Shown: piece after piece, positions 5,324 to 13,641 of the stretch
Layout of the letters: the number at the start of each line of letters is the position of its first letter
Numbering within the stretch: the stretch's first letter is position 1
NCBI RefSeq assembly: GCF_002104995.1
Contig: NW_024468395.1
Coordinates: 1 to 25,957, forward strand
Direction: 5' to 3'
DNA length: 25,957 nucleotides
Source of the DNA: Linderina pennispora
Taxonomy: Eukaryota > Kickxellomycota > Kickxellomycetes > Kickxellales > Kickxellaceae
Notes under the pieces: generated by a model
What the model was told of the DNA's origin: nothing
Databases searched by the model: none
What the model saw: the letters and a program-made list of their open reading frames with translations, nothing else
Translations under genes and position numbers: made by a program

Positions 5324-5565
5324 CTACGTTGAAAGAGTTGTGTAAAGAGCGCATTAGCAATATGGTCTTCCAGAAACCAGCTCCAATCGGCCAAATGGAC
5401 GCGTCGCCGAATTCCAAATTTCGCGATGCCCCCAATCAGCATCTCTCCCATTCACGAAAATCGGACTCTGGTTCTGCAGTCATCCAGCACGTATCCGCCC
5501 TGATTTACGCGGCGCATCCACTGAGTAATTTGGGCGCATCCATCATTCAGCTCAACGATAGGTAC
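5324..5565 (-). other. RPL35: Probable 5' intron of RPL35 (donor unresolved)
   Basis: Bounded at its 3' side by CGTAG, with branch-like TGCTAAT at about 5350-5355. The 5' side is ambiguous: ATG|GTACCT at 5565 gives a 242-nt intron after the initiator codon, whereas GTAAGC at 5731 gives a 408-nt intron and an 11-residue N-terminal extension. No other protein-like frame was found in this stretch. Confidence 0.45.
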
Positions 5566-5769
5566 CATTGCGATTATTCTGTTTGTTCTTAGATATGACA
5601 GAAAGTTGAAAGAGAGAATCCAGCACTCCGCATCAACACCTTCGATATGCCATCGTGCCCCAAAACCGAGGGAATTGCTGGTTCTGATCAGCAATCTGAT
5701 CCGTTAATCTATTCTTCATATTGTGGCTTACAACCGAGCGGGTTTGGCTGGTACGCTTGGCAGCCATGA

Positions 5770-6540
5770 TGAACGTTGTGCCCGCATGCAATGGACAGCA
5801 TCCATCTGTTGAGGATAATTTTTTGAGGGTGGAAGCGATCTCCAAGTTGCAGGCTGAAGTGACCAGTATGGCATGGGCTGCCTGTGTGTATATCCAGTGA
5901 GTGGGCTATGCTCACCAAACAGGAAGACATGGTCTATTTGTGGGCGGGAGAAACATTAAATAACACTGACGATTTTAAAGATTTTGCGACAGAAATGATG
6001 CGAAGAGGTCTTGAGAAGTGTTAGAGAAGACGGTATGTTTTAATTAGGTGAGACTATTCAAATCCTAAGCTAATCAAAATATGAAATGTGCATATATCTA
6101 CATAGCTCTGGTCAGTTCAGCAAAGATATATGTAGAGGGCAGATATATTTACATAGCAAGGCATATGAAAGATACGTAAGAAAAGTCAGATACACCCGAT
6201 ACATCGCATTCAACAGGTATATGTATGGATCTTGTGTGGAATGGTGCAACAGTATAAAAATGACGGCGCTAGTTTACCTAAGCCCTACACCAAGGCTCGC
6301 TCTCCCGATAGCACTGTGCTCAATAATTTAAAAGCTCTGCCTGTTTCCGAATAATAGCGCTGTAGAGTGCGAATGTCCCAAAGTCATCCAGTTCGGAATG
6401 TAAGTATGAATTGCGTTTACCCATGATTAAACCTGGAGATATGTCGCTAGTCGCCCATCTTAATAACAGCAGCAAGTCAGAGCCTCGAGTAATTCACTTA
6501 TCGCCACTTTTCCACAAGACTAAAGGCCAATGGCATAGAA
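5770..6540. other. AT-rich non-coding stretch between RPL35 and the Fanzor region
   Basis: No convincing reading frame. From 6085 to 6240 there are several imperfect direct and inverted copies of an ATATATCTACATAGC-like unit (6092-6106, 6126-6140 inverted, 6143-6159), followed by repeated GATAC words. Composition is visibly more AT-rich than the housekeeping block to the left. It probably marks the start of the accessory island. Confidence 0.5.
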
Positions 6541-6570
6541 TTCCCCCAGCACCTGGTTTTACGGACATAA

Positions 6571-6619
6571 CCACTTGTGGTCAGTAGATAGAACCTGTTT
6601 GACTGCGGGTTCTATCCAC
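6571..6619 (-). repeat. Two consecutive hairpins downstream of the Fanzor stop
   Basis: A strong stem-loop has arms at 6584-6595 and 6608-6619 (GTAGATAGAACC against GGTTCTATCCAC): 11 of 12 Watson-Crick pairs, and the remaining position is a G-U wobble when transcribed from the minus strand. The loop is 12 nt. Immediately beside it, 6571-6580 reads CCACTTGTGG, a short second hairpin. They lie about 210 nt beyond the 3' end of the Fanzor frame, where guide-RNA scaffolds of TnpB/Fanzor elements are normally encoded. Assignment to a guide RNA is inference. Confidence 0.5.
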
Positions 6620-6826
6620 GGTCTATCACTGATCGAGATATAAGGTTCAAGGACTTGTAAGTTCCTATTCGATACTAGAATTGCTCTGCTCGTGATGCGA
6701 GCTCGACTGCTAGTCAGCATGGGTTGACATGTCGATAAAGGCATCACGGCGAACTGGTCATTTGAACGTGTCGGATGGTTGTTCGTGCAATGGCGATCAT
6801 GGACATCTCCCACCTTGGTGGCCTGC
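6571..6826 (-). ncRNA. Candidate Fanzor guide RNA (fRNA/omega-RNA) region
   Basis: Known for the family: TnpB and Fanzor use a structured RNA transcribed from the 3' end of the nuclease gene to the element end, the guide being the sequence just outside the element. Here the minus strand after the stop contains a short hairpin directly behind the stop codon (plus-strand CCACCTTGGTGG, 6809-6820) and the two hairpins at 6571-6619, with no competing protein-like frame. Exact ends and scaffold fold are unknown, so this marks a region rather than a mapped RNA. Confidence 0.3.
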
Positions 6827-9319
6827 TCAGCGTAGGCGCTTCAGTGCTGGCTCGCTGCTGCTGGCAACAGAATCGCCTGCTGCTGCACGCCTCTTGCGCG
6901 GCCTCTTTGTTGCCGGAGTGGTGCCGGAAGTATCGGTAGCAATGGCCGTAGAACGACGGAACCGTTCAGGAATACTACCTGAATCACAGAGTGACTGGAA
7001 AATGAGCCTGAAGTTTAGAACTGCTGCGAGATCGCGGTTCAAGAGTCGAGACAAATAGGCCTGCCTGTATTGTGCCATGGCCCGCTTACATGACTCGCTT
7101 GTACAGCGGAGAAGGCCATGGCACTTCACAGTTGGGTTCTTCGATCTCTGGTAGGGCCGCGGGTTGGGGACATGCCGGAATGTCTGCAGCGACTTTTCGC
7201 AGCAGAACGGGCACATCGACGATGTCCAGAATTCGTCGATCAGATAGACTTCAAAGCTATGGTGCTTGAACTTGTCACGCCATCCCTTGCCACGGATTGG
7301 CGCATGGTGTCGGGCCATCGGCGCACTCCAATTGCCCATGATCAGCACTGGGTCTGGACCAAACTTGCTCCGGAGTTTCGCGGCAAGCCTGTGGTCTGCA
7401 CGGGCCTGGTTCATGGATGAATCAAGGCGCAGCTTGCGGTGAAGCGGGTACACCTTGGGACTGGTACTGACACTTGGATGGGCCTTCCAGCGCCTTTGGT
7501 GCTGCTTGTTTGACTTAGTGGGCTGCTGCTCTGGTAACCTTCGCGCTGTCATCGTGCTGGCATAAAACGGTGCTAGAACACACCGCACAGATGCACGGGC
7601 AGCAACATAGGCACGGAATTTTGCTGGGCTAAGGGTCCGGCAGCAGTGCTTGGAAAGCTCAGCCTCTGCTCTGCGGACAGCATCTTCTGGGACTTGATCC
7701 TTTGTATCCCGACGAATCCTGTCATAGTGGCGCAGCTTGAGCTCCTTATTGCGCTGCTGTCGTGTGTAGCGGTAGAGCATTTTTTCACCCTCTTTCCCAT
7801 TGCTGCTATTTTCGTGCATCATGTATAGCAAATCACCCCGACCTGGATCGATGAATACACAGCGGCCTTTCAGATTCTGCAGCTCTGGCTGTGGGATCTG
7901 GTGGATATAGCAACAGTCAGCTATAGTATTGCCTCCCACAGCACCACCTCCTGCAACATCGCCTGTAGCATCGCCTCCCACAGCATCGCCTCCTGCACCA
8001 TCAGCATCTACTGCACCATCAGTCTTGGATACCTTGTCTTGTAACAAAATGCATATCATTACACCATCTGTTGTCGCCATTCCGTGGAATTTTCTATCAC
8101 CATGCGCCTTAAATGGCTTTGTCAGATCTGCGACCCGGCCCCACACATCCCACACAGGTTGTGTAATCCCTTGGACCGGGTCGTGTGCACAGACTGGGGG
8201 TGCTGGTGCATATGCATTGTTAAGTGCTGCAACAGTGTCTGCTGCTGCATCGGCGGCAGCAGCAAGTGAATCAGCCACTACTGCTGCAGTTTCTGCAGTG
8301 GCCTCTGTTTCATCTGATGGCATCTTCGCTGCTTCGCGTGCAGCCTTCTTGGCCAATTTTTTGCCCTTTTCTGCTGCTTTCCTTGCCTCTGTTGCTACCC
8401 TCTTTGCTGCACTGATCTTGGTAACCTGCTCGCGTGTTTTCGAAATAAACGCCTGCTTGATTATTTGCTTGTCTAAGCGCACATGGCCTGGGATCTATGA
8501 TGTCCGCAGAGGCAAGCATTGGGGGGAGACTTACCAAGTTGCTCATTCTCGATAAGCTGGCATAGGCGAATGTATGCACGCAGATGCTGAAGTGGATTTA
8601 CCTTGGCATCATAGGCATTAAGGACTGGTGCCAGCTTGTTGTAGATTGCAAGCATCGGTGGGGTGAGCACACTGAGATCAGGGTGCCTAGAGCCAACTGC
8701 CTGGCGGAGCTTCTGTGCAGGTGTATAAATACACACTTGACATGCATTATTGAACTCAGCCTTGGACACATTGCCCATTGTGCTGTGCAGTGTGTTTTTG
8801 CGGCTGCGAATATCAATCAATTTGGCCAGAATCCGCTGTAGGCAACTGCCATAGTGCAACACAATGTTGTTCTTGTATGCTGTTAGCAGCTCGGTATCAA
8901 CATATGTCGCTACTTGATCCATTTCGCGCACACCATGTAGCTCGATATCGCCATTATGCAATAGATAATCATAAATATGGTATCTAACTACATCACCGAA
9001 ATCTGCGCTCGACAGTTCTGACCTGTCCTTCCGGTTAACGAAATCCTCGGCAGATATGACAGTCTTCGCCTTCAGATTGTGATATATAAATAAATAAATA
9101 AATTGAGCGAAAGAATCCCTTTTTCACAAGTATTGAAGGGTCAAAAGCATCATCATCAGCTAGTTGATGGAGTAATATCCATCGTGCAAGCATGTATGTA
9201 TGCTCTTTGATGATATTGACGCTGTGTACAAATTGCTCTAGGCGGGGCAACATAGAATCACCGAAGCCAATACCACCAAGTGATGTCTTTATGACAGTAG
9301 TGCTGCGGGTAATATTCAT
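6827..9319 (-). CDS. Fanzor (eukaryotic TnpB-like) RNA-guided DNA nuclease; N-terminal part interrupted twice
   Basis: The family cuts DNA under RNA guidance through a split RuvC domain. The 551-codon frame 8482-6827 carries RuvC-I FIDPGRGDLLY (Asp codon 7849-7847), RuvC-II LIDEFWTSSMCPFC (Glu at frame residue 417), a Cys cluster (C424, C427, C454, C460, C465) and RuvC-III LLNRDLAAVLNF (D484). Before RuvC-I lies the family-like W-x(n)-F..TTDGV segment. The C-terminus holds the basic signal KRPRKRR and ends KRLR, a likely nuclear import tail. Upstream pieces are 9319-9128 (starts MNITRSTTVIKTSL) and 9069-8535 (includes TAYKNNIVLHYGSCLQRI). Splicing out 9070-9127 and 8473-8534 gives a continuous 790-residue protein. 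Without splicing, the gene has a frame change in a TTTA repeat, a frame change at a C6 run and a TAG at 8497-8495. Lys/Ala- and Gly/Ala-rich inserts precede RuvC-I. Family call firm; functionality open. Confidence 0.85.
7929..8016 (-). repeat. Coding minisatellite in the Fanzor gene (Gly/Ala/Asp-rich insert)
   Basis: On the plus strand the words CACAGCA, CCTCCTGCA and ATCGCC recur in imperfect units of about 15-18 nt. On the coding strand they make a GGDAVGGDATGDVAGGG-like stretch (frame residues ~156-186), just ahead of RuvC-I. A flexible, repeat-expanded insert of this kind is likely to vary between copies. Confidence 0.6.
8473..8534 (-). other. Predicted 62-nt intron that overlaps a conserved Fanzor motif
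   Basis: Minus-strand GGTAAGT donor at 8535-8530 and CTTAG acceptor at 8473 restore the frame exactly (L-D-K-Q). Read in the downstream frame, the same segment encodes LPLRTS (8515-8498), TAG (8497-8495), then IPGHVRL continuing into DKQIIK. The block resembles the conserved PLRTSxIPxHxRxD motif of Fanzor proteins. Joining it to the upstream exon needs one extra C at the C6 run (plus-strand G 8521-8526). Confidence 0.5.
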
Positions 9320-10220
9320 TTGAGAAATTCAATAGGCAAGTAAGAAGAGAAATGATGCTGTTCAGTTTTGCTTTATTGCAGATGCATAGCATTAAGAACT
9401 TTTTATTAAAAATGATCTGGCTTGGATGGTTTTTGGGGCCCTTAGCACTGATAGTCTCTTGAATCAGTCTATACAGACTGGGTCCATTGTGGCCCAAATA
9501 CTACTGCTTACGCATGTTCATAAGACAAATTAATTTATAAAATAAACCCACAAATATTGCATAACCACCAGAAGAGCTATATGGCCTTATTCAATAGGTG
9601 CTCTTAAATAAATATCCTAAGAGTGCTGCGCAGCCGGTGATGACCACCATGATGACGCCATGGAAGTTATCAGGCCGACTGACAATGAGAGCAGCTCTTG
9701 CGCTGAACCAATGGAGATATCTAGTGGAGACCTGTGACCACTACAATAACAACTTGTCACACTGGTTTCACCGATGAGGTCAGATGCCGCACAAGATCAA
9801 AAGGAGTTTATGGAGCAAGTCACCCAATCTCGCTTTGAGGCTTAAAAGAGCTTTATTTTTAACCAATTAATAAGGTTCTAGCGGACAGTCGGACACTTTT
9901 GGACTATAAAATCTTATATAAAGGTAAAGACCTTTCAGGAACAATGGCCACATTCGAGTGATTCCGACAAGGTGTGATATTTATCCACAGTCCTCTATCT
10001 TCTGCCCCCTCTCCCAAATTCCTACACTATTTTCTTAATTATTTTGTAGTTCTAACAGTATTAATTTTATTCAAGCATGCACTGGCGTTTTTGAGTTTTG
10101 GCATTTTGACCTCTTATTGTAGCTTGTGTGGCACTTTCCTCTGATTCCGCCACAACACCTGTGAGCTTTAAATCATAGCGTATGGCTACTGAACCCCTAT
10201 AGTTATGACTTTAAGGGATC
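9320..10220. other. AT-rich intergenic DNA between the Fanzor gene and the F-box-like pseudogene
   Basis: No protein-like frame over about 900 bp. Near its right side are a TATATAAAGG TATA-like box (about 9915-9924), a hairpin AAAGGT-AAAG-ACCTTT (9920-9935) and a CT-rich leader-like stretch (about 9989-10030). These look like the promoter of the decayed plus-strand gene that follows. A GTCC-rich sequence at 9881-9905 could be an element end, but this is not established. Confidence 0.45.
9915..9924 (+). promoter_or_regulatory. TATA-like box, probable relic promoter of the downstream pseudogene
   Basis: TATATAAAGG on the plus strand is followed about 65 nt later by a pyrimidine-rich stretch, the same arrangement seen upstream of the intact F-box gene (TATAAAG then CT-rich leader). 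The first ATG after it (about 10076) closes after five codons, in line with a dead gene. Confidence 0.35.
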
Positions 10221-10906
10221 CTATATGTCTTTGACCACATGCTTGCTAATAATAGGTGGTACTTTGAAAAGCCTAACATTTTGCAACCACACATTTTCCA
10301 TCCTTGGCCAGCCTACTGATTCGCGATTATCTAAGCCAGCCCAATAGCCAGCTGATAAGATTCTTTGCACCCACACTCAGTGAGCTAGTGATTTGCATTG
10401 ATACTCGAGCACGGTTTGCATGGAAACAGTTCGTTGACAATGATACGGATACGATCGAGTCTAAAGACCTGACAATATTGAAAACAGCCGTGATAGTTAT
10501 GCACAGCACGCCTTTGCCACCTTCCCTTTGCCTTTCAACCTTCTATGGATCTCAGATGTTTCTCTTCCCGAAGCCCTGCGCACCTTGCAGACATGTGGTA
10601 TATTCAATGTGCACATTGACTTTGAGGGCCTGTTCGATAACATCGCGTTAGGATCGTTGAAGGTAACCGAGTTACCTGACCACATTCCATCCATAAACTC
10701 ATTGCCTCTGCGGAATGTCGAAGAGTTGTATATCTCCCTGCTGCTCACTTTCCGATGCGGCGACATGGATCAACTGATGAGCACCATCATTCATGGCCAT
10801 TAGGGCACGCGATGAGTCGCTCGAAGGCGTTTTAGCATTTGGTGAGAGCCGAGGCATTGAGTTCAGAAGTTTGCAGAAACAGTTCATTGGTGATAGACTG
10901 GTTTAG
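10221..10906 (+). pseudogene. Decayed F-box/LRR-like protein gene
   Basis: Protein-like pieces occur in alternating frames. From about 10221 to 10310 comes VFDHMLANNRWYFEKPNIL; from 10304 to about 10515 LIRFFAPTLSELVICIDTR; from about 10516 to 10803 WISDVSLPEALRTLQTCG and LPLRNVEELYISLLLTF; then to a TAG at 10906 FMAIRARDESLEGVLAFG. The leucine spacing and the LxxLxI blocks resemble the leucine-rich part of fungal F-box proteins such as the intact gene at 11184-12707, but the sequences are not close copies. There is no usable ATG and no F-box, and at least three frame changes. Because other genes here also show single-base shifts, some breaks may be assembly errors, but the missing start argues for real decay. 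Function cannot be assigned. Confidence 0.5.
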
Positions 10907-11183
10907 TCATTTTCGTCAATATATTGCCTTAACGGTGTAGCAGGTATGTTCGAATGCTAGTACGTTAACGCTATGGTCAGTTTTGATGATCAAACACCTC
11001 GCTGAATTGTACAGTGACATTAACTTAGCCATTGCTTCCTTTTCGCTCGGTTTACTTGTGCTCAGAACTAGATGCCTATGTTATGAATATCAGGATCGAA
11101 AGTGGAAGGAGGCGAGAAAAGAAAGAAAAATAATACGCTGCCTATAGTTAGAACAAATCTACAAATGGTAGAAATCATAAAGC

Positions 11184-12707
11184 CTAGACAAATGCTAGAC
11201 CATTCTTGTACACCCGTCTCAAGGCTGCCTTATCCACCTCAAAGCGCTTCGACAGAACTAGCTTGTAAAGCTCTGGCAGCCGCCGGGTTGCCATCAGTAG
11301 CCAGGTCTTGTCTCGCAGCATCGGGAATGCGATTTTGAGACCAAATACCAGAACTGATGTGCTTAGTGGGGTCCTCCTGCTGCACACAACCTCATCACTG
11401 GCTTGCTGATCCGAGTGGGACATGAAGAGATCTAGCGTGTGCATCCGGGGCAGCTGCGTCATGAGCATCTCAATGCTCTGTAGCGGAATTGAGCGAGCTA
11501 TAAGGCGCAGACTCCTAAGCATTGGCCATTTTGCGTCCTTGATGGGTGGGAGGTCGGATTGTGGCAGAGACAGCGTGACTTTGTTCAGCTTGGCCGGGAT
11601 ATCAAAGATCTTGGTAAAGAAGCTGTTCTTGTCGAGTACAGGGATCTGGGTTCTCTGCGAATCGCTGATGCAGAACTCGCGTATATTGCGGACCAGCTTT
11701 GGGTTGAGGCGCTGCAGCTTGTTTGCATCATCGAGGATAACAAGCGACCCAATGCTAGGGATCTTTACCAAGTCCAGCGCGTCCGTGTATGAGTCCAACG
11801 CCTCCATCAGGCAGAGACTCCAGAGTCTGGGGAACTGCAGCTTGAACCGACCAATCTGGGTCGCCGGGTAAACATGGCGATTTTGGAACGTGCGCATTAT
11901 CAGCTGCTCGACATTCGGGAACACGATTGGGTTGCTGGCGTCGCCGAACATGCCCCACGGGAAGTTGCTCGAGCTGTTGACAATTTCGATTGTCTTTAAG
12001 GTGCTCGGCTTGGCGCGCAGGGTCTGGGATGATGAAAGGTCTGAAGGGTTGATGATGCGGATACTGGTCAGGTTCTGGAAGTGCACTTGCGGGATATTGC
12101 CGAGAATGATGCCATTGACCGTGATCTCGTGGATAGACGCAGCCAGCATCACGATGAGATTGTAGTAGATGTTGGCAGGCACTGTCGGCAGGATACTGGA
12201 CGACATAGGAATGACAGAGGTGACATGCGGGAACAGTTGCAGCAAGTAGCTGGAGATGAGCTTACAAACATCATGGAGCTGAAAGAGGTCTGCATGTCCA
12301 TCACATGCCATCATCAGAATTGAGTATAGTTTAGGGAACCTGTGATGGTGCACGCCGAGCCCTCGGATAACGTCGATGAGGGTAGCTCGCTCGGTGATCA
12401 GGGGTCCACCGAGACAAAGGTGTATGACCCTGTGCTGCATGCCGGCGGCGACAATTGACGGCAGATTTGAGCGCCATGTGACGCGGCCTGACTTGGTTTT
12501 CTTGGGCTCAATGACCAGGCTCTTGTAGAGTTCGTGCTTGACAATGGAGTACCAGGAGCGACAGACCAGAGCCAGATTGACGAAGCGCTCCTGGTGGCCC
12601 ATATCGGGCTCGTCTTGATATGCGATGTAGTTGGCATTGCAGATTATGTTTTCGACTATATCGCCGTTCGTCAAGGCGCTGATGTTGGCAGAGGAGCGTG
12701 CATGCAT
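11184..12707 (-). CDS. F-box-like protein with C-terminal leucine-rich region
   Basis: 507 residues starting MHARSSANISAL; this ATG is chosen over the longer in-frame extension because a TATA box lies 96-102 nt upstream of it, inside that extension. An F-box-like motif is seen around residues 15-65 (NGDIVENII, then LALVCRSWYSIVKHELYKSL, the typical L-VC-xW pattern). The remainder is a string of irregular LxxLxL blocks (about residues 170-490), suggesting a leucine-rich solenoid without exact repeats. F-box proteins link substrates to Skp1-Cullin ubiquitin ligases; the substrate is unknown. No intron or frameshift is visible. It is divergently transcribed from MON2 across about 930 bp, and the decayed relative lies just downstream, suggesting a locally expanded family. 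Confidence 0.75.
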   Translation of the reverse strand: MHARSSANISALTNGDIVENIICNANYIAYQDEPDMGHQERFVNLALVCRSWYSIVKHELYKSLVIEPKKTKSGRVTWRSNLPSIVAAGMQHRVIHLCLGGPLITERATLIDVIRGLGVHHHRFPKLYSILMMACDGHADLFQLHDVCKLISSYLLQLFPHVTSVIPMSSSILPTVPANIYYNLIVMLAASIHEITVNGIILGNIPQVHFQNLTSIRIINPSDLSSSQTLRAKPSTLKTIEIVNSSSNFPWGMFGDASNPIVFPNVEQLIMRTFQNRHVYPATQIGRFKLQFPRLWSLCLMEALDSYTDALDLVKIPSIGSLVILDDANKLQRLNPKLVRNIREFCISDSQRTQIPVLDKNSFFTKIFDIPAKLNKVTLSLPQSDLPPIKDAKWPMLRSLRLIARSIPLQSIEMLMTQLPRMHTLDLFMSHSDQQASDEVVCSRRTPLSTSVLVFGLKIAFPMLRDKTWLLMATRRLPELYKLVLSKRFEVDKAALRRVYKNGLAFV

Positions 12708-12802
12708 AGCTGGTGTTCTGGGAAAGATGGATATGAATATGGAAATGGAAGTGTGAGGAGCAGTTGGGTGATAGAGAGGGGAAAGAGTGAGCGGGAGTCG
12801 TG

Positions 12803-12809
12803 CTTTATA
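12803..12809 (-). promoter_or_regulatory. TATA box of the F-box gene
   Basis: TATAAAG on the minus strand, 96 nt upstream of the chosen ATG, followed by a CT-rich leader (minus-strand CTCTTTCCCCTCTC). It supports the start at 12707. Confidence 0.45.
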
Positions 12810-13641
12810 GATATTCAAGAGGAAGGCGGCCAGCGGTGCGTGCGTGACAACCGAAGCAGACAAGTGTCTGCAGTATGCAGGCGCATCTCCGAGTGAGAAA
12901 GACTTCCTCGTATAGAGATCCATAGTGAGGGATGTCAGATGGGGTTCATGCGGCTTAGTACACCTGCAAGCACTTTAAGCAAGTTTATCGATTGCTTTCA
13001 AGATAAGGTCATGCGTGTTTATGAGCATCCGGCTGGACAGGTTCTCAGGAACAGTCTTGCAGGTATCTGAATGGACAAGGTGACGAAAACAGAAACCGAA
13101 GGGTGTCCACATGTCCGGAAAGTATGCAGCTCAGTGCACCATATGTGATGGTTTGTCGATATAAGCGAGCCGCCAGAGTCGCATGGGTGTTTGGATGGAA
13201 CCACCCGGAGCCAGCTGGAGCCAACAAGTACCTGGTTAGTGGTTCAAAAGAATAATTGTGTGTTTCTGAATCAATGTAACCCTTGGTGCGTGGTAATTAC
13301 TCACCTTTGTTATGAAGTATCCAAGGATGCGGGTCCACCGTGAGCTATCAACTAAAACAACAACCTAGAACACGCCGTAGTCACATTTCAGTTGACCACG
13401 GTGGGCTTATTTCACACCAGTTCTCTGCTGTGCCGCTCAATAACGCTAGCGCTGCCAGTTCTGCTCAGTGATTTGATCGACTAATCAGGACTGTCCAGTG
13501 TCAGTTGCTGCCCGTCTGAAGCGCGTCTGGTGTCGACGTGGTCTACTTGCCATCCTCTTCAGTTTACAGCCAGTGCCTTTTTCTAGCAGTCCTAATTTCT
13601 ATATTTCACATCTATCTCTGCATTTACTCTAATCCTTACCA
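12810..13641. other. Divergent promoter region between the F-box gene and MON2
   Basis: About 830 bp with no protein-like frame. An 8-bp inverted repeat, CCACCGTG (about 13336) and CACGGTGG (about 13397), may be a regulator site. A CT-rich leader precedes the MON2 start. No tRNA or repeat family was recognised. Confidence 0.4.

Follow-up and report, generated by a model that had tools for sequence, protein, structure and literature searches.

The DNA analysed here, a stretch of 25,957 bases that makes up the whole of contig C54 of Linderina pennispora and is called the window below, carries a disabled copy of a gene for Fanzor1, a relative of the CRISPR cutters, inside a Helitron-type element that is repeated many times in the genome. 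We lean towards the view that this is a dead member of a high-copy family of Fanzor1-bearing Helitrons, which is moved by a RepHel transposase and homes by RNA-guided cutting through an ATA TAM. To our knowledge, the role of Fanzor in its carrier transposons is unsettled. The Linderina family lends itself to a direct test of this role: a single assembly contains 78 places, many of them with known flanks, together with intact sister genes, empty sites and a linked RepHel.

Identity of the Fanzor1 gene

Judged by its sequence, the gene of the window element is a Fanzor1 gene on the minus strand, with its frames within positions 9319-6830. A phmmer search against PDB sequences matched it to PpFz1 (E=2e-56), the best among the solved relatives, and to SpuFz1 (2.4e-28), and the structure comparison found a RuvC fold with PpFz1 as the top fold match. 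The Fanzor gene announced in the original prediction is thus borne out, and its RuvC motifs lie where they had been placed, on the minus strand. Numbered in the 555-residue frame, with the positions in the GTG ORF in brackets, these are RuvC-I IDPG with D216 (D212; codon 7847..7849), RuvC-II DEFWTSSMCPFC with E421 (E417; codon 7232..7234, within DEFWTSS, the majority of sister copies having DEFRTSS) and RuvC-III NRDLAAVLNF with D488 (D484; codon 7031..7033, within NRDLAAV). In view of the phmmer matches, chance does not account for these motifs. The Fanzor1 motif D-X(125,275)-[TS][TS]-X-X-[C4 zinc finger]-X(5,50)-RD (PMC3627910) is found in the window frame as D216, T424-S425, C428/C431/C464/C469 and R487-D488, C464 and C469 being the second Cys pair. 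Pfam profiles gave no Fanzor match on the window frame, where only a sub-threshold CorA match appeared in the N-terminal part, and none on the ORF of the sister copy L020 either. A homologue search with the full length of L020 gave one match among the best 7999 candidates; with residues 500-830 as query, 115 relatives were found at E<=1e-5, mainly in Coemansia and Mucorales. The AT-rich island in which the gene had been placed holds for positions 5501-6500 and 9001-11000 (GC 0.41-0.44) and not for the ORF itself (GC 0.49-0.55).

The intact single frame at 6827-9319 that the original prediction had described was not confirmed. Coding is split over three minus-strand stretches in two frames: an N-terminal frame of 94 aa from an ATG to a stop (9038..9319), a middle part in another frame (8476..9123) and, back in the first frame, a C-terminal part of 555 aa with the linker, RuvC, zinc ribbon and basic tail (6830..8494). 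Compared with L020, it has gained 4 nt in a TTTA repeat (CDS nt 234), lost 1 nt from a C run (nt 833) and acquired a stop at reference codon 287. Relative to the sister copies the window copy also lacks about 13 codons in the middle part and has W instead of R in DEFRTSS. Interrupted by a stop and two breaks of frame, it is not a complete translatable gene; it is disabled and cannot encode the enzyme. Plausible splice letters in the window (GTAAGT..CAG at about 8536-8491 and GTGAAA..GAAG at about 9125-9064) would be expected if the gene were functional and these were two short introns. However, five sister copies (L003, L020, L022, L023 and L029) each read through both places as one ORF of 857-870 aa, so the frame breaks are lesions rather than introns, and at the second place a similar peptide, QCCPLRTSFIPSHMHID, is present in P0001, a relative from Coemansia. 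The two introns were rejected on these grounds, and we give a functional spliced gene hardly any chance. A frame-breaking deletion in the C run (CDS nt 820-840, about position 8528 of the window) occurs in 10 of 43 copies, of 1 nt in nine and 2 nt in one, and could reflect a hot spot of slippage, common descent or a fault in the assembly.

A Helitron-type element in many copies

The gene lies in a non-autonomous Helitron-type element of 3,256 bp on the minus strand (6675..9930). Alignments of sister copies to the window end at about 9930 and 6673, and copies whose flanks are unrelated have in common a 5' TC and a 3' CTAG or CTGG. The 5' terminus is TCTTTACCTTTATATAAGATTTTATAG (9904..9930). Towards the other end are a subterminal hairpin, GCTCGCATCACGAGC (6688..6702), with one pair broken relative to most copies, the 3' terminus CTAG, of the type CTRR (6675..6678), and then a TA (6673..6674), all on the minus strand. 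This TA, which follows the end in 50 of the 51 distinct 3' ends, is read as target-derived. Across the family, copies begin with TCTTTACC; at the other end stands a hairpin, mostly GCTCGCATCGCGAGC, and after it TTCTAG or TTCTGG. The pattern with which the 51 distinct 3' ends (CTAG or CTGG) were collected required TTCT[AG]G. The element thus has the 5' TC, the 3' CTRR and the subterminal hairpin that are hallmarks of Helitron1 (PMC3627910). Many copies (L037, L045, L048, L052, L062 and L063) have extra ATCTTT units or partial terminal duplications at the 5' end, as if this end had been re-copied or had slipped.

A genome-wide search for sister copies in the 26.17-Mb assembly of 222 contigs found the element at 78 or more places including the window, i.e. 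at least 77 others, in 113 matched stretches. As 78 of 426 first-look candidates were scored, and 40 of 241 in a search with the 3' end alone, the copy counts are lower bounds. Some of the 78 places are probably the two haplotypes of one insertion.

The neighbours of the element in the window include an FtsJ-like gene whose best match, at 97% identity, is a protein of Linderina pennispora; the second match reaches 46%. Upstream lies an F-box-like gene (11184-12923, minus strand; F-box-like E=8e-5, just below the family cut-off), and by eye a relic of the same family perhaps sits beside it (10300-12923). Part of the 3' flank of copy L007 (L007:1-754) is 95.6% identical to window 11081-11834, and the 3' flank of L022 holds an ORF that by eye resembles the F-box-like gene.

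A linked RepHel transposase

The window copy has no RepHel itself; a related element at L037 (C157:10300-20200) does, with PF14214 (2e-49) and PIF1 (2e-78) domains. The first 79 bp of the window element's 5' end are 91% identical to the 5' end of this RepHel Helitron, which ends in a related hairpin, GCTTGCATCGCAAGC, with a compensated change, plus CTAG. A Fanzor element follows directly after it in the same orientation. In the whole assembly, PF14214 was found at seven loci in 13 matched stretches. All eight candidates for the RepHel 3' end were found to be such ends, and all eight are joined head-to-tail to a 5' end of the Fanzor type. With a slash marking the junction here and below, five joins read CTAG/TCTTTACC, two CTAG/TACTT and one CTAG/TTACC. 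The Fanzor element runs on for at least 1.48 kb, to the edge of the stretch examined, in six of them, and diverges after about 52 bp in one and after about 317 bp in the other. Since six of the eight joins have no intervening TA, they look like end-to-end rolling-circle products rather than ordinary insertions. Among the eight RepHel 3' ends of the assembly none is free-standing. The Fanzor element is most likely moved by the RepHel of this related Helitron.

No uninterrupted RepHel gene could be read in the stretches examined, introns and lesions not being told apart there; open parts measure 487 aa in L094 and 616 aa in L036. In L036 (C171) the gene is interrupted by a stretch with an ORF that, by eye, we take to be a Copia-like reverse transcriptase/RNase H.

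Target sites and empty alleles

At +2, A stands without exception in the 51 distinct 3' flanks; at +1, T stands in 50 of them. In the same flanks, the background frequency of A is 0.34-0.40 (128 of 381 after T, 57 of 144 after AT). For 22 sites, the two flanks were joined and used as query against the genome. Three sites have a second place spanning the junction, with flanks 93-99% identical; these are probably the empty sites of the other haplotype. They read CCCA/TATACTTA/TACTATC, GATA/TAGGGCCCATA/TAATAG and GCAA/TTTAATA/TAGAATT, and the middle 8, 11 and 7 nt, respectively, are absent from the filled allele. The empty 5' junction is A/T at all three sites, no target-site duplication was seen and 7-11 nt were lost at each. 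Helitrons insert at A/T without target-site duplication, and their canonical description is one without target loss.

A search with 29 further 3' flanks led to seven places that were read: four were filled (L119, L120, L122 and L124), two empty (L121 and L123) and one was the filled copy's own place (L125). Another five second places were counted as filled from their position next to Fanzor copies or 3' ends already listed. The empty-like 3' junctions are A/TA in five of six, a count that includes site E, where a 2-nt gap is needed, and site D, where the 5' flank is not homologous. The sixth, at C112:1278153, reads GGCA/AACATG against TACATG in the filled allele, i.e. A/AA and no loss; its match to one filled site covers the 3' flank but no more than about 10 nt on the 5' side. 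In filled alleles the junction is CTAG/TA or CTGG/TA, so that GTA stands in place of ATA. The A/TA rule may reflect the target preference of the transposase alone.

Empty and filled alleles differ at sites A-E in 7 of 40 positions at +3..+10, as compared with 6 of 198 positions (Fisher p=0.0018, the interval having been chosen post hoc). The differences thus sit just downstream of the 3' junction; by eye, the 5' junctions are clean in two of the three known.

Selection on the Fanzor protein

Changes in the Fanzor CDS that are common to three or more copies bear the mark of purifying selection. For 29 copies (of 31, the low-coverage ones being left out), singleton changes comprise 314 nonsynonymous (N), 140 synonymous (S) and 17 stops, a ratio of 0.96 to the resampled expectation, which is neutral. 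The ratio falls to 0.85 for changes in two copies, 0.47 for those in 3-6 copies and 0.33 for those in more than six. On a FastTree tree of 43 copies (8 of 51 with less than 60% CDS coverage being left out), internal branches have N 254, S 272 and one stop (ratio 0.42); for terminal branches the ratio is 0.66, from N 869, S 580 and 24 stops. By simulation, 0 of 300 runs were as low in either case. Neutrality is not seen on the terminal branches of the tree, which could be due to homoplasy from recombination or gene conversion lowering the ratio; alternatively, selection may still act on some copies. The contrast of shared changes and internal branches with singletons and terminal branches indicates a stronger constraint on the protein in spreading lineages than in single copies. 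The low-complexity linker was masked in these analyses.

The catalytic letters are altered in 4 of the 29 copies, at the first D in L010 and L026 and at E in L011 and L012. Outside the masked linker, 11 of the 43 copies have neither frame break nor stop at more than 95% CDS coverage; L037, split inside the linker, counts among these 11 because of the masking.

Signs sought of a guide RNA and of homing

A search for an omega-RNA in the 3' UTR gave no signal: this stretch folds no better than its shuffles (z=-0.92, with 35 of 200 doing as well), has no match in Rfam and is not conserved above the ORF.

At the window locus both versions are filled, that of C54 and that of L017 on C168. Over window 5329-10276 the flanks of the two are 94.7-95.6% identical (divergence 4.4-5.3%), and divergence is 6.1% in the CDS and 7.1-8.5% in the element parts. 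The two Fanzor copies belong to different clades and are not nearest neighbours. With copies more diverged than their flanks and not closest relatives, simple recent homing is not favoured at this locus; gene conversion between copies is a possible source of the clade mismatch. In the filled pair L004/L025, divergence is 3.4% in the CDS and 3.5-4.3% in the flanks, and L004 is nearer L028 than L025. Reduced divergence between filled allelic copies, as a sign of homing, was thus not seen at window/L017 or L004/L025. In the filled pair L029/L112, neither the CDS nor the 189 nt of flank that entered the comparison shows any difference.

Proposed mechanism and alternatives

The ATA target, the GTA of filled alleles and the published TAMs together suggest a model in which insertion supplies a guide from the 3' flank and at the same time erases the TAM. 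The RepHel of a related Helitron would move the Fanzor element. A Fanzor RNP would then draw its guide from the DNA flanking the element's 3' end and cut a matching empty site that bears an ATA TAM, and repair from the filled copy would favour retention and spread of the element. Insertion itself would destroy this TAM, turning ATA into GTA. Movement by the linked RepHel, the origin of the guide, cutting, TAM use and homing are what we infer. The ATA target agrees with the TAM known for the nearest enzyme that has been characterised. The selection signal indicates that the protein mattered during the spread of the family. As a tentative reading, to which we give less than an even chance, the family would be a eukaryotic RNA-guided homing Helitron, in which an HUH enzyme inserts at ATA and Fanzor reads ATA as its TAM and the 3' flank as its target. 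With the TAM erased by the terminal G of the element, cutting would be confined to empty alleles. Such cutting by Fanzor may also lie behind the loss of 7-11 nt of target and the changes in the first bases of the 3' flank.

It is rather unlikely, in our estimation, that Fanzor is a passenger without a role in spread, the Helitron transposase alone setting the A/TA target and the copy number. The known insertion of Helitrons at A/T speaks for this explanation, as do a 3' UTR that shows no special RNA structure and the persistence of many broken copies. It has difficulty, however, with the amino-acid-conserving bias, which is strong for changes in 3-6 copies (0.47), in more than six (0.33) and on internal branches (0.42) and vanishes in singletons (0.96). 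Instead of cutting the empty allele later, Fanzor might aid integration itself, e.g. if it opened or trimmed the target. The 8, 11 and 7 nt missing from the target at three empty sites would suit such a role, as would the concentration of filled/empty differences at +3..+10, significant for an interval picked after looking (p=0.0018). Yet staggered nicks by RepHel alone could lose target bases as well, the sites are three in number with the direction of change not polarised, and the doubtful sixth place, C112:1278153, shows no loss. We thus regard an integration aid as quite improbable and retain RepHel-driven movement followed by RNA-guided homing as the preferred mechanism.

Comparison with known systems

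Fanzor1 within non-autonomous Helitrons has already been described in Chlamydomonas (PMC3627910), and the association of Fanzor with Helitrons is named in the introduction of PMC10711439. A search of one literature library found no paper on Fanzor in Linderina; among the excerpts that it returned, those for target-site deletion by Helitrons concerned only L1 retrotransposition, and those for Helitrons in Kickxellomycotina only DIRS/Ngaro elements. As far as these searches show, the intronless high-copy family in a fungus, the head-to-tail RepHel join, the loss of target that accompanies the A/TA rule and the contrast in selection are new.

The transposase carried with TnpB in IS200/IS605 is an HUH enzyme. 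TnpB, likewise an RNA-guided nuclease, is reported to act there as a gene drive that cuts plasmids without the element (PMC11870625). That system is bacterial and its activity is demonstrated, whereas the Linderina system has a eukaryotic RepHel and a putative activity.

SPu-1 of Spizellomyces punctatus, the element of SpuFz1, carries a Fanzor1 with a CATA TAM and has putative TA target-site duplications (PMC10432273, PMC3627910), a relation of target to TAM similar to that in Linderina; it has terminal inverted repeats instead of Helitron ends (PMC3627910). The TAMs of GtFz1 and SpuFz1 are listed in a sentence of PMC11423790 in the order opposite to that of PMC10432273. PpFz1 of Parasitella parasitica (PDB 9cf0/9cf1) is the closest solved structure by sequence and by fold, and its ATN TAM (PMC11423790) is compatible with the ATA of the Linderina empty sites. 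Between two matched stretches PpFz1 has 99 residues and the window protein 23, from which the FRI insertion that PpFz1 is described as having (PMC11423790) is probably missing for the most part in the latter.

A similar architecture is that of CRe-1, -2 and -3, Helitron2 elements of Chlamydomonas reinhardtii described by Bao and Jurka in 2013, which likewise carry Fanzor1 in a multicopy non-autonomous Helitron-type element with truncated derivatives (PMC3627910). According to the same article, their gene is spliced, they insert after TTTT and many copies have target-site duplications of about 7-19 bp. The Linderina element differs from them in its intronless fungal ORF, its A/TA target, the lack of a visible target-site duplication with 7-11 nt lost at three sites, and the RepHel 3' end that is joined directly upstream at eight loci.
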